A stretch of DNA of 32,090 bases from Dehalococcoidia bacterium (GTDB lineage Bacteria; Chloroflexota; Dehalococcoidia; DSTF01; WHTK01). Both the position numbers and the translations under genes were made by a program. The first letter of the stretch is position 1. Every line of letters starts with the position of its first letter. Location of the stretch: contig DATLYJ010000057.1 in the NCBI GenBank assembly GCA_035574915.1, positions 1 through 32,090 of the forward strand, given 5' to 3'. Positions 9,652 to 14,204 of the stretch are shown piece by piece. The notes beneath the pieces were generated by a model that was given only the letters and a program-made list of their open reading frames with translations, was not told the DNA's origin and made no database searches.

Positions 9652-12444
9652 ATGCCGGCCCGAGAAAGCACGGCGCGCGCGCCCACGGACCGGGCTCTCC
9701 AGCGTTACCGCGAAAAGCGCGATTTCACCAGGACGCCGGAACCGCCCCCCGGCAGCGCCGATGACGCAGCGAAGAACCTCGTGTTCGTCGTCCAGCAGCA
9801 CGCCGCGACGCGCATGCACTGGGACTTCCGCCTCGAGGTCGATGGCGTCCTGAAGTCCTGGCCGCTGCCCAAGGGGCCTTCTCTCAACCCCAGGGACAGG
9901 CGCATGGCCGTAATGGTCGAAGACCATCCCTACGAGTACCGGAACTTCGAGGGCGTGATACCGCGGGGCGAGTACGGCGCCGGCCAGGTGATCATCTGGG
10001 ACGAGGGCACCTACACGCCCGACGAAGGCGGCGTGTACTCCTGGGACAACAAAGAGGAAGGCAACCGTCGCATGCGCGAGGGCCTCGAGAAGGGGAAGCT
10101 GTCCTTTACCCTGCGCGGCCACAAGCTCAAGGGCTCCTTCACCCTCGTGAAGACCCGGTACGACAAGAACTCCTGGCTGCTAATCAAGCACCAGGACGAG
10201 TACGCGACCACCGGGGACATCCTCGAGGAGGACCGTTCGGTCCGCAGCGGCCTCAGGATCGAGGACTTGAAGGAAGGGCGGCTGCCCGGCGGCGGACGCG
10301 GCGCGGAGCCGCATCCGGCGGCGAAGAAGACGCCGTTCCCGGATAGCCGCAAGGAGCGGCCCATGATGGCCACGCTTGTCGACCGGGTCTTCGACCGGCC
10401 CGGCTGGCTTTGGGAGCCCAAGCTCGACGGCATCCGCGCCCTCGCCTTCATCCGCGACGGCAAGGTGGAGCTCCGCAGCCGCCGCGGGCTCGACTGCACG
10501 CGCCAGTACCCCGCCCTGGCAGCGGACCTGGCGCGCCAGCAGGGCCAGCCCCTCGTGCTCGATGGCGAAATCTGCGCCCTGGACGAGGCCGGCGTACCTC
10601 GCTTCCAGCTCCTGCAGCCGCGCATCAACCTGACCCGCGAGCACGACATCGCGCGCATGGAGGCGGAGCTACCGGTCGTCTACTTCGTCTTCGACATCCT
10701 GTACGCGGAAGGCTGGGACCTGCACGGCGTACCCCTGAGAGACCGGAAGGCGCTCTTGGGGCGCTACGTGGCGCAGGGCCCCCGCATCAAGCTTGTCAGC
10801 TACGTCGCCGACGACGGCCCCGCGATGGAGGCGGCCTCGCGCGAGTTGGGCTTCGAGGGGGTGGTCGGCAAGCGCGCGGACTCGCGCTACGAGCCGGGCG
10901 TGCGCAGCAAGTCGTGGGTCAAGGTCAAGAGCGTGAATGAGCAGGAGTTCGTGGTCGGCGGTTACACGCCGGGCGAAGGCTCACGCAGCAAGTCCTTCGG
11001 GTCGATAGCCGTTGGCTACTGGGACGACGGCAAGCTCATTCATGTCGCCAACGTCGGCAGCGGCTTCACGGACGCCACGCTGGCCTCGACGCTCAAGCAG
11101 CTGCGAGATCTGGAGACCGATGAGAAGCCCTTCGCGAACAGAGTCGAGGGCAAGGTCGTCTGGGTGCGGCCGGAATTGGTCGCCCAGGTGAAGTTTCAGG
11201 AGTGGACGGCTGACAACCACCTGCGCGCGCCCGTCTTCCTGGGCCTGAGGCCGGACGTTGACCCGCGCCAGGTGCGCAAAGAGGCGCCAGCGCCGGCAGC
11301 GGCGGCCATCGAGGTCGTCGAGGAGCCTGCAGGCAGGAGCGAAGACGGCCTGGAGGAGGAAGTACGAGGCGTCCTGGCCCAAATCGACGCCGCGGCAAAG
11401 CGCGACGTTGTGGTCGAAGTCCAGGGCGAGCGCGTGAAGCTGACGAACCTCGACAAGGAGTTCTGGCCGGCTTACCGCGGCTCGGCGGCGACCGGCACGG
11501 AGGGGATAGAGCACCCGCCGCTCACCAAGGGTGACATGATCCGGTACTACGTGAAGGTCGCCCCCTGGCTGCTACGCCACCTCAAGGACCGGCCGCTGAC
11601 TCTCACCCGCTACCCTAACGGCATTACCGGCTCGCTCTTCTACCAGAAGCACTACTCGCAGCCGATCCCGCCCTTCGTGGAGACCGTCGACATCTGGTCG
11701 GAGCACAACCAGGAGAACGGCACCTACCTGATGTGCAACAACCTGCCCACGCTCATCTGGCTGGCGCAGATCGCGGACCTCGAGATCCACGCCTGGATGT
11801 CACGCATCGACCCGGAGCCGGACGCCCACGGCCGGAAGCTGGCAGCGCGAGGGTCGAAGCAGGAAGCGCGGGAGTCCATCCTCAACTTCCCGGACTACAT
11901 GGTCTTCGACCTCGACCCCTACATATACTCGGGGGCCGAAAAGAAGGGCGCCGAACCAGAGTTCAACCGCCGCGCCTGGGAGAAGACCGTCTCCGTGGCG
12001 CTGGACTTGAAAGCGCTCCTGGACCAGTTGAAGCTGTCGTCCTTCGTCAAGACGACGGGGAAGACCGGGCTGCACGTCTACGTCCCCATCCGCCGAGACT
12101 TCACCTACGATGAGGTGCGCGAGTTCACCCGGACGCTAGGCGTCTACCTGGTGCAGCAGCGTCCGGCTGACATCACGATGGAGTGGGACACCACGAAGCG
12201 CAGAGGCAAGGTCTTCTACGACTACAACCAGAACACGTTCGGGAAGCAACTGGCGGCCCAGTACTCGCTGCGGCCAACGCCCTGGGCCGGCGTTTCGATG
12301 CCGGTGCTCTGGTCCGAGCTGCCGAAGGCGGACCCGCTCGCGTTTCGGATCGACTCCGTGCCGGACAGGCTCGCAAGGTCCGGCGACCCCTGGCGGGATA
12401 TCCTCGATTTCAAGAACGACGTGTCGAGGCTGCTCGCGGGCTAG
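9652..12444 (+). CDS. ligD: Multifunctional non-homologous end-joining DNA ligase LigD (PE-Lig-Pol)
   Basis: LigD processes and seals double-strand breaks together with Ku. This 930-aa protein carries all three activities. The N-terminal 3'-phosphoesterase (~30-170) has His50, His56 and Asp58 in QQHAATRMHWDFRLE and His92 in VEDHPY. The central ATP-dependent ligase (~230-540) has the adenylated Lys257 in motif I (EPKLDGIR), followed by SRRGLD, LDGEICALD and VKVKSV. The C-terminal primase-polymerase domain (~590-925) begins with LTNLDKEFWPA and has catalytic Asp753 and Asp755 in MVFDLDPY, plus KTTGKTGLHVYVP. The order PE-Lig-Pol is that of Pseudomonas LigD, not the mycobacterial Pol-PE-Lig. A ydeI-like gene lies between it and ku. 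About 85 residues of a polar linker (535-590) precede the polymerase domain. Confidence 0.96.
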   Translation: MPARESTARAPTDRALQRYREKRDFTRTPEPPPGSADDAAKNLVFVVQQHAATRMHWDFRLEVDGVLKSWPLPKGPSLNPRDRRMAVMVEDHPYEYRNFEGVIPRGEYGAGQVIIWDEGTYTPDEGGVYSWDNKEEGNRRMREGLEKGKLSFTLRGHKLKGSFTLVKTRYDKNSWLLIKHQDEYATTGDILEEDRSVRSGLRIEDLKEGRLPGGGRGAEPHPAAKKTPFPDSRKERPMMATLVDRVFDRPGWLWEPKLDGIRALAFIRDGKVELRSRRGLDCTRQYPALAADLARQQGQPLVLDGEICALDEAGVPRFQLLQPRINLTREHDIARMEAELPVVYFVFDILYAEGWDLHGVPLRDRKALLGRYVAQGPRIKLVSYVADDGPAMEAASRELGFEGVVGKRADSRYEPGVRSKSWVKVKSVNEQEFVVGGYTPGEGSRSKSFGSIAVGYWDDGKLIHVANVGSGFTDATLASTLKQLRDLETDEKPFANRVEGKVVWVRPELVAQVKFQEWTADNHLRAPVFLGLRPDVDPRQVRKEAPAPAAAAIEVVEEPAGRSEDGLEEEVRGVLAQIDAAAKRDVVVEVQGERVKLTNLDKEFWPAYRGSAATGTEGIEHPPLTKGDMIRYYVKVAPWLLRHLKDRPLTLTRYPNGITGSLFYQKHYSQPIPPFVETVDIWSEHNQENGTYLMCNNLPTLIWLAQIADLEIHAWMSRIDPEPDAHGRKLAARGSKQEARESILNFPDYMVFDLDPYIYSGAEKKGAEPEFNRRAWEKTVSVALDLKALLDQLKLSSFVKTTGKTGLHVYVPIRRDFTYDEVREFTRTLGVYLVQQRPADITMEWDTTKRRGKVFYDYNQNTFGKQLAAQYSLRPTPWAGVSMPVLWSELPKADPLAFRIDSVPDRLARSGDPWRDILDFKNDVSRLLAG

Positions 12445-12450
12445 CCTTCG

Positions 12451-12478
12451 TCTCGGCTGTCGGCTCTCGGCCATCGGC
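12451..12478 (+). repeat. Short heptanucleotide array, NNTCGGC x4
   Basis: Four perfect 7-bp units of the form NNTCGGC (TCTCGGC, TGTCGGC, TCTCGGC, CATCGGC) begin 6 bp after the ligD stop. The phase is exact, with no interruptions. Confidence 0.8.
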
Positions 12479-12521
12479 CGGAGACTCGATGCGCTTTCAT
12501 ACGCTCAAGCCTTCGCGGGAG

Positions 12522-12598
12522 CATCTCTCTGCTCTCTGCCTTTTGCTCTGTGCTCTCCGCCCTCCGCCCTCTGCCCTCTGCACTCTGCACTCTGTACC
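12522..12598 (+). repeat. Pyrimidine-rich heptanucleotide array, about 11 units of YTGCNCT type
   Basis: Eleven consecutive 7-bp units run without a phase slip between ligD and the ydeI-like gene. The core from 12529 reads CTGCTCT, CTGCCTT, TTGCTCT, GTGCTCT, CCGCCCT (twice), CTGCCCT, CTGCACT (twice) and CTGTACC. The strand is nearly free of A, and the array ends 9 bp before the GTG of the next gene. It resembles the short tandem heptamer repeats (STRR) known from cyanobacteria. No protein reading is credible. Confidence 0.8.
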
Positions 12599-12607
12599 CT
12601 TTGATCC

Positions 12608-13192
12608 GTGGAGCCCCTGTTCTTTGCATCCCCGGAGGAGTTCCGCGCCTGGCTTGGCGCCAACCACGAGACGGCGCAGGAGCTTTGGGTGGGCTTTCAC
12701 AAGCGCGGGACGGGCCGGCCAAGCCTCACGTGGCCGCAGTCGGTCGATCAGGCGCTGTGCTTCGGCTGGATCGACGGCATTCGCAAGAGCCTCGGGCCGG
12801 AAGCGTACGTCATACGCTTCACGCCAAGGCGGCCGGACAGCTTCTGGAGCAACATCAACCTCAAGAAGGTGGAGGCCTTGATCGAACAGGGACTGATGCA
12901 CCCTGCGGGCCTTCGCGCGTTTGAGGCGCGCAAGGAGGCGCGCTCCGGCGCCTACTCGTTCGAAAACCGCCACATTCAGCTCGCGCCCGCGTTCGAGGCC
13001 GAGTTCAGGGCGAACGAGGAGGCCTGGCGCTGGTTCGAGTCCCAGGCTCCCTGGTACCGCCGCACCGCCGCCTTCTGGGTGATGAGCGCCAGGCGCGAGG
13101 AGACGCGCCGCAGGCGGCTCGTGACCCTGATCCGCGACTCGGAAGCGGGACGGACAGTGGGTCCCCTCACCCGCCCCGGGGCGGGGCAATAG
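12608..13192 (+). CDS. YdeI/OmpD-associated family protein
   Basis: This 194-aa protein matches the bacterial YdeI/OmpD-associated family. The pattern FASPEEFRAWLGANH is followed by ELWVGFHKRGTG, then LTWPQSVDQALCFGWIDGIRK, then YVIRFTPRRPDSFWSNINLKKVEALIEQGLMHPAG, which is highly characteristic. The C-terminal third is helical, rich in Arg and Trp, and ends in a short Pro/Gly tail overlapping a CG palindrome (13171-13184). The family has no firmly established biochemical function. The name comes from genetic links to antimicrobial-peptide and bacteriocin resistance in enteric bacteria. The start is GTG 12608; a heptamer array lies directly upstream and no ribosome-binding site is visible. 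Its place between ligD and ku may be incidental or may reflect shared expression. Confidence 0.85.
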   Translation: MEPLFFASPEEFRAWLGANHETAQELWVGFHKRGTGRPSLTWPQSVDQALCFGWIDGIRKSLGPEAYVIRFTPRRPDSFWSNINLKKVEALIEQGLMHPAGLRAFEARKEARSGAYSFENRHIQLAPAFEAEFRANEEAWRWFESQAPWYRRTAAFWVMSARREETRRRRLVTLIRDSEAGRTVGPLTRPGAGQ

Positions 13193-13334
13193 AGTCCCGG
13201 CGACCGCCACTGTTACGTCCCAGTTAGGCTGCCAGGGCTGCGCCGGAGCCGGCCTGGACCGGCTTTCGCTTACAATGGGAAGCCAACGGTCTGCAGGGCG
13301 GCGAGGTTCGCGCCCGCGGGCCGGGAGGTGGGAC

Positions 13335-14204
13335 ATGCCAAGGCCACTATGGAAGGGCGCGATCAGCTTCGGGATGGTCACCATCCCCGTCAAGCTTTAC
13401 TCCGCTACCGACGAAAAGGACGTCCGCTTCAACCAGCTTCACAGGACGGACCACTCTCGCATCCGCCAGAAGATCTTCTGCGCCGAAGAGGACATCGAGT
13501 TGGACCGGGACGACATCGTCAAGGGCTACCAGATCGCCCCCGGACAGTACGTTGTCCTCGAGGACGAGGACTTCGACAAGGTGCCCGTGAGCACCACTCG
13601 CACCATCGAGATCGCGCAGTTCGTGGACCTGAGCGAAATCGACCCCATCTACTACCAGAAGACCTACTATCTCGAGCCGGACGAGGTCGGGATGAAGCCG
13701 TTCGCGCTCCTGATGGCGGCCTTGAACGAGAGCAAGCGCGTCGCCATCGCCAAGATCTCGATGCGGCAGAAGGAGCATCTCTGCACGCTGCGCGTCTACG
13801 AGAACACGATCGCCCTCGAGACCATGTTCTACGCGGACGAGGTGCGCTCCACGGCGGACCTCACCGTGCCGGGCGAGGACGTGCAGGTGAGCGAGCGCGA
13901 ACTGCAGATGGCCCGCTCCCTGATCGACATGCTCACAGAGGAACTGGACCTCACCCAGTTCCGGGACAACTACCGCGAGGCGCTGCTGGAGGTCATAAGG
14001 GCCAAGGCCCAGGGCCAGACGATCGAGGCGCCGCAGCCTGCCGTCGCCAAAGTCACGGACCTCATGGAAGCGCTGCGGGCAAGTGTCGAGGCAGCGAAGG
14101 CGCGCCGCCAGGCTTCAGCGCCAGAGAAGGCGGAGGCTCCACGCCAGGCGGAAGAGGAAGACGAGCTCTCGACGCGGAGGAAGGCCAAGCGGAAGGCGAG
14201 CTAG
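13335..14204 (+). CDS. ku: Non-homologous end-joining protein Ku
   Basis: Bacterial Ku is a homodimer that encircles DNA ends and recruits LigD. This 289-aa protein starts with the family signature PRPLWKGAISFGMVTIPVKLYSATDEK, continues with FNQLHRTDHSRIRQKIFC, and has LSEIDPIYYQKTYYLEPDE and PFALLMAALNESKRVAIAKI in the core. The last ~40 residues are a low-complexity Ala/Glu/Lys/Arg tail (AEAPRQAEEEDELSTRRKAKRKAS), the usual basic extension of bacterial Ku. The start is ATG 13335, preceded by GGAGGTGGGAC. The frame is open to 13275, but those residues are Arg/Gly-rich and unlike Ku. A TACAAT -10 candidate is at 13271-13276, without a good -35. Confidence 0.96.
   Translation: MPRPLWKGAISFGMVTIPVKLYSATDEKDVRFNQLHRTDHSRIRQKIFCAEEDIELDRDDIVKGYQIAPGQYVVLEDEDFDKVPVSTTRTIEIAQFVDLSEIDPIYYQKTYYLEPDEVGMKPFALLMAALNESKRVAIAKISMRQKEHLCTLRVYENTIALETMFYADEVRSTADLTVPGEDVQVSERELQMARSLIDMLTEELDLTQFRDNYREALLEVIRAKAQGQTIEAPQPAVAKVTDLMEALRASVEAAKARRQASAPEKAEAPRQAEEEDELSTRRKAKRKAS

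Follow-up and report, generated by a model that had tools for sequence, protein, structure and literature searches.

The place of two tandem heptanucleotide arrays at a locus of non-homologous end joining (NHEJ) raises the question of whether these repeats are scars of slippage or end joining that belong to this locus, or members of something more widely distributed in the genome. The window, that is, the whole stretch of 32,090 nucleotides analysed here, is contig C57 of a Dehalococcoidia assembly of 3.25 Mb in 183 contigs, and the best matches of its Ku are Dehalococcoidia and other Chloroflexota MAGs, with 67% identity to Dino_bin34. The genes are ordered as ligD, the gap with the arrays, a ydeI/OmdA-like gene and ku (Table 1), and both arrays lie inside the 163 bp between the ligD stop (12444) and the predicted GTG start of the ydeI-like gene (12608).

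Table 1. Features of the ligD/ydeI gap and its surroundings, in window coordinates.
Feature	Position	Strand	Basis
ligD (phosphoesterase, ligase, polymerase domains)	9652..12444	+	Pfam
Predicted stem-loop just 3' of the ligD stop, enclosing the TCGGC units	12450..12485	+	Fold of 12448-12492
Four NNTCGGC units	12451..12478	+	TRF, pattern count, Markov test
Ten in-phase units, consensus CTCTGCN, with 12 bases left to the predicted start of ydeI	12527..12595	+	TRF, Markov test
ydeI/OmdA-like gene, predicted GTG start	12608..13192	+	Pfam OmdA
ku	13275..14204	+	Pfam Ku

Both arrays are real. TRF detects them at 12451-12478 and 12527-12594, and their order at a lag of seven bases exceeds that of 5000 copies simulated from the stretch with a first-order Markov model: for the TCGGC part, 2 of 5000 copies reached the lag-7 match (14 of 5000 at any lag of 4-12), and for the CTCTGC part 0 of 5000. 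Besides, TCGGCNNTCGGC occurs 3 times in the window against 0.49 expected. The sequence-only reading had counted four NNTCGGC and about eleven YTGCNCT units in exact 7-bp phase. The four TCGGC units stand (TCTCGGC, TGTCGGC, TCTCGGC and CATCGGC), but the CTCTGC units number ten (CTCTGCT, CTCTGCC, TTTTGCT, CTGTGCT, CTCCGCC, CTCCGCC, CTCTGCC, CTCTGCA, CTCTGCA and CTCTGTA), and the phase is kept within each array but not between the two, which are 75 bases apart from unit to unit (10 x 7 + 5). The fold of 12448-12492 has a predicted energy of -22.2 kcal/mol and a z of -2.40, with 4 of 200 shuffles equally good, and the TCGGC block may be a variant array of few units, enclosed in a small stem-loop that follows ligD. 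Within 12300-12800, three Rfam matches were obtained, every one under the gathering score, the promoter scan gave no promoter, and the terminator scan marked a single terminator-like site, 12517-12536, against an expected 0.4.

The CTCTGC motif is found far from this locus. The pattern CTCTGYNCTCTGY has 34 matches in the whole genome and its reversed-pattern control has 0, and the matches group into 17 clusters on 14 contigs, 16 of these clusters lying outside called genes and the exception, C30:9594, at a doubtful gene start. With additional copies on C40, C162 and C5, about 20 arrays were seen in this genome; only strong copies were counted, since the search for weak ones by doublets had a high background, with 102 clusters in 602 kb versus 82 in the reversed sequence. 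The link to NHEJ suggested by the sequence-only reading finds no support in this distribution, as 16 of the 17 core clusters are on other contigs. Pfam searches covered one neighbouring gene per locus at ten loci, namely C40 and nine of the gaps that contain the 17 clusters, and identified an AMP-binding enzyme, a TrpRS/TyrRS-type synthetase, an amidase, a glyoxalase, an M19 peptidase, an SDR, a luciferase-like enzyme (twice), GAPDH and HPPK, all metabolic or tRNA synthetase genes. No end-joining gene and no common pathway were found among these ten neighbours, the genes at C81, C94, C142 and C161 lying outside the scan. The location of the array between ligD and ku would suit a scar left by LigD/Ku end joining, but the family is scattered beside unrelated genes, and ordered 7-base units in regular phase would be the pattern of slippage and not that of a junction, so that an end-joining origin is extremely improbable. 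We conclude that the arrays of the ligD/ydeI gap are real, ordinary in kind and without sign of an NHEJ scar, and that for the NHEJ locus itself they are of little consequence.

The motif is rare among relatives. The three-unit form CTCTGCNCTCTGCNCTCTGC occurs in 2 of 393 genomes of the class, the own genome included, the other being the distant genome G347; with one mismatch it was found in 1 of 60 relatives, which is the own genome itself. The exact TCGGC pattern TCGGCNNTCGGCNNTCGGC is confined to the window within the own genome and occurs in 10 of 60 relatives, the own genome included; its reversed control, which is itself 7-periodic and whose matches were taken as counts, also matches in six of the 60. 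In G347, the CTCTGC-type pattern has 24 matches versus one for the reversed control. The two motifs of the window had been described as unrelated, yet TCTCGGC and TCTCTGC are one base apart and alternate in one array of G347. On contig C116 of that genome, GCTCTCT, GCTCTCG and GCTCTTT units alternate in phase within a single array, and on its contig C35 five CTGGAGG units stand beside six CTCTGCT-type units over about 100 bases. Because of this one-base distance and these mixed arrays, the two arrays of the window may be variants of one satellite family, or a mixed make-up may be possible in such gaps, the blocks of the window not being joined in phase.

Considering these results, the CTCTGC array of the window is probably one copy of a genome-specific, dispersed family of intergenic heptamer satellites. 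In tblastn searches with E values up to 1e-5, the ydeI-like gene was matched at none of 58 other Ku loci with fetched flanks of at most 6 kb, some of them shorter, and had matches of 33-35% identity in 2 of 17 other genomes of the order; no orthologous ligD/ydeI junction was found for a comparison of copy number among these 58 loci and 17 genomes. Unit number does vary in one paralogous pair, the divergent gaps on C91 and C142 (the C91 gene is the SDR identified by Pfam, and the C142 gene was matched by alignment of the starts), where a close alignment runs from the final two units of the array into the start of the gene and the clean units number 7 versus 2. The array on C109 is composed of CTCTGCT and CTCCGCT, and its CTCCGCT variants reappear in groups, which is what successive rounds of slippage would be expected to produce. 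The sequence-only reading had named the lack of other copies and of length variation as the mark of chance low complexity, and we found both other copies and, in that one pair, length variation. The corresponding explanation, that chance seeds slipped independently in plain low-complexity DNA with no dispersal or structure, could account for the heptamer arrays of unlike motifs in several members of the class and for the few arrays of other motifs in the own genome. It is nevertheless quite improbable, since one motif recurs in 17 clusters with a reversed control of 0 and yet has its three-unit form in only 2 of 393 genomes, and since the arrays have the polarity and the inverted partners described below.

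Measured to the adjacent gene boundary, the CTCTGC strand has its 3' end closer than its 5' end in 15 of 17 arrays, with median distances of 18 versus 112 bases (permutation p about 0.001); the 17 arrays that suggested this regularity are also those on which it was counted. This set includes the C91/C142 paralogues and two arrays of one gap on C74, the gene starts are from a simple in-house caller, and without C30:9594, for which the called gene overlapping the array was skipped, the count is 14 of 16. Expressed for the other strand, 15 of 17 arrays have the purine-rich strand starting at the shorter distance; the boundary concerned is the start of a gene for 12 arrays and the end of one for 5. 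Within the window, the CTCTGC array obeys this polarity and the TCGGC array violates it. Of the arrays in G347, all three that are flanked by called genes on either side conform to it, and 6 of 7 point to a gene start. An independent test, run in relatives on period-7 arrays with different motifs, gave the same orientation in 17 of 20 scored arrays (25 found, 5 unscorable), one of the fits having exactly 50% purine and some arrays sharing a gap; the binomial p, calculated by hand with gap-sharing arrays treated as independent, is about 0.0013, and scoring by G-richness gave 15 of 20. The most purine-skewed non-periodic stretches of 28 bases were scored likewise as a control: 113 of 234 started nearer the boundary in these relatives, as did 127 of 267 in the own genome, and the share was 43-52% over eight control settings. 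A polarity that is independent of the motif and occurs without a G-quadruplex motif is a useful lead.

Such placement could also be that of a regulatory leader, in which pyrimidine-rich repeats in the 5' UTR bind a protein (of the S1, cold-shock or Csr type) or substitute for the ribosome site, a role proposed for the TAACTGA repeats of a Beggiatoaceae genome (MacGregor 2015, PMC4679880). This is consistent with the predicted gene start on the 3' side of the CT strand in 12 of 17 arrays, several of them 3 to 20 bases off (3 at HPPK, 6 on C161 and 12 at ydeI), and with the direction of the arrays in G347; similar placement with rare ribosome sites is described for the TAACTGA repeats (MacGregor 2015, PMC4679880). 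In the window, the pyrimidine array reaches almost to the ydeI-like start, so that a purine-rich ribosome site is not seen there. However, a leader function does not predict the mirrored orientation of the 5 of 17 arrays at gene ends, the ten flanking genes have no pathway in common, and the gaps on C91 and C142, which differ in unit number, retain an AGGAGG site in addition to the array. We consider a leader function of the family unlikely; at most, the pyrimidine leader may tune the translation of ydeI.

Inverted partners are a further property of the satellite family. An opposite-strand doublet scoring at least 9.4 was found within 150 bases on the inner side of 8 of 17 arrays and on the outer side of 0 of 17, with a threshold chosen after the scores had been seen and three of the eight partners at exactly 9.4. 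Two of the eight partnered arrays pair with each other, which leaves seven gaps, and the background in gaps of unselected contigs is 5 of 239 for one strand and 2 of 239 for the other. Folding of five partnered gaps gave z values of -4.13, -2.80, -2.66, -1.94 and -0.72, and the inverted-pair regions on C40 and C5, outside the 17, gave -2.72 and -4.45; these regions were chosen for their inverted look, and the sole partner-free gap folded is that of the window, whose CTCTGC array has no opposite-strand partner within the 150 bases searched. The inner partners would allow hairpins of the form boundary-GCAGAG...loop...CTCTGC-boundary, and the family as a whole has both inverted convergent pairs and boundary polarity. 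Hairpin form and dispersal are also features of REP-like elements mobilised by a Y1 (RAYT/IS200) transposase, and the genome has two Y1_Tnp matches. In the 1.7 and 3.2 kb around these matches no CTCTGC array was seen, however, their best doublets scoring 9.0 and 9.4, the latter isolated, and the first surroundings (1.7 kb) showing one weak, unrelated lag-7 stretch, and the loops and flanks have, by eye, no common sequence except in the C91/C142 paralogues. We consider mobilisation of this kind very improbable.

For the satellite family, we propose that hairpin-forming arms would seed and stabilise slippage by seven bases, and that repeated slippage would spread unit variants along the array. 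Single long arrays, such as that of the window, could then be hairpins with one arm expanded or the other lost.

Heptamer arrays are not limited to this motif or this genome. Unselected stretches of the own genome (441 kb) contained 2 period-7 and 5 period-8 arrays, and G001 (159 kb) gave 2 period-7 arrays and the class (349 kb) gave 4. The order (271 kb) gave 3, every one from G005, versus 0.7 in its Markov control. Summed over these four Chloroflexota groups, period 7 had 11 arrays, period 8 had 7, and periods 4, 5, 10, 11 and 13 had 0 to 3, while periods 6, 9 and 12, multiples of three and largely coding, had 17, 11 and 21; the surroundings of Ku genes from non-Chloroflexota (585 kb), whose G+C is lower, had no period-7 array. 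These counts support a modest preference for period 7 in the class, which is not visible in the own genome alone at that threshold. The view that such repeats are unusual outside cyanobacterial STRRs is at odds with the period-7 arrays in several genomes of the class and with the published repeats of Xanthomonas, Beggiatoaceae, Geobacter and Chloroflexus, although the likeness to the cyanobacterial STRRs that it implied is borne out, the heptamer arrays being comparable. The STRRs of cyanobacteria (Mazel et al. 1990) reportedly consist of 7-bp units, with hairpins situated upstream of genes or between them.

Several arrays of relatives were observed in other settings. Contigs C13 (L080:1-66) and C60 (L081:11935-11998) of G003 both end inside a (CGCCGAC)n array; the assembly possibly broke at the array, and counts from assemblies of this sort may miss some of the long heptamer arrays. 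In G017, contig C273 (L085:1400-1700) has a tandemly repeated block, about 90 bases long, in which CGATTGC-type heptamers follow a GCTGGAGCGCCAGC...GGCGCTCCA hairpin, and in G043, contig C2 (L207:23-135) has a CCCCTGA-type heptamer array present twice, identical and 72 bases apart. A -10-box-like TACTAGAATGGG is found close behind heptamers at L260:4186-4225 and L262:1307-1330.

Our literature search found no paper on intergenic tandem repeats of Dehalococcoidia and one on intergenic heptamer repeats of Chloroflexi. The CTCTGC family joins a known kind of dispersed heptamer satellites, that of Xanthomonas, Nostoc and Chloroflexus. Like the GGGAATC and GGGGA(C/T)T repeats of Xanthomonas and Nostoc, it is dispersed and intergenic, with degenerate 7-base units in variable number (PMC4692102), and it has the tandem degenerate heptamers at many separate intergenic loci that define this type apart from its G-quadruplex clause. 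The Xanthomonas GGGAATC repeats have a published architecture like that of the CTCTGC family, with inverted pairs that converge, of which two genomes contain 70 and 75, and with similar distances of 28 nt on the 5' side and 160 nt downstream, and in the part of the paper cited here the authors were unable to identify a role in gene regulation (PMC4692102). The two differ in number, with 186 and 183 arrays per genome in Xanthomonas and about 20 here, and in that the Xanthomonas/Nostoc unit can form G-quadruplexes (PMC4692102), whereas NRCAGAG/CTCTGYN lacks a run of at least three G per unit. The TAACTGA repeats of Beggiatoaceae, cyanobacteria and Bacteroidetes lie forward before start codons in several genomes, as here; one reverse set directly follows a stop, heptamers of other sequence share the gap, strains differ by 7-nt indels, and contigs end in repeats (PMC4679880). 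They differ in motif, and the Maribeggiatoa genome has few related heptamers, with most sets at starts (PMC4679880). Within the same phylum, the (GATAGRA)n of Chloroflexus aurantiacus is one heptamer in 22 satellites scattered in one species, but differs in motif and class (PMC6749651). The GGGACCG repeats of Geobacter metallireducens are also dispersed tandem heptamers, at 49 sites, but have four units and occur inside genes as well (PMC2700814). A hairpin-forming STRR is described for cyanobacteria (PMC2670836), which differ in lineage and motif, the host of the present arrays being not cyanobacterial, as its Ku matches Dehalococcoidia and Chloroflexota.

To this known kind, the CTCTGC family adds a like geometry without G runs and a polarity across several motifs. 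The quadruplex reading of the Xanthomonas and Nostoc heptamers leans on G runs, and the placement, polarity and inverted pairing of NRCAGAG, together with the polarity of other motifs of Dehalococcoidia, point to a cause that would not require quadruplexes. We tentatively suggest that the heptamer satellites of unrelated phyla might constitute one intergenic class set by geometry and not by sequence, with a purine arm at one boundary, a pyrimidine arm at the other, 7-base units and fast turnover of the motif, and that, because the geometry rule holds here without a G-quadruplex motif, their cause might be a strand-polar process of hairpin formation or slippage common to bacteria.
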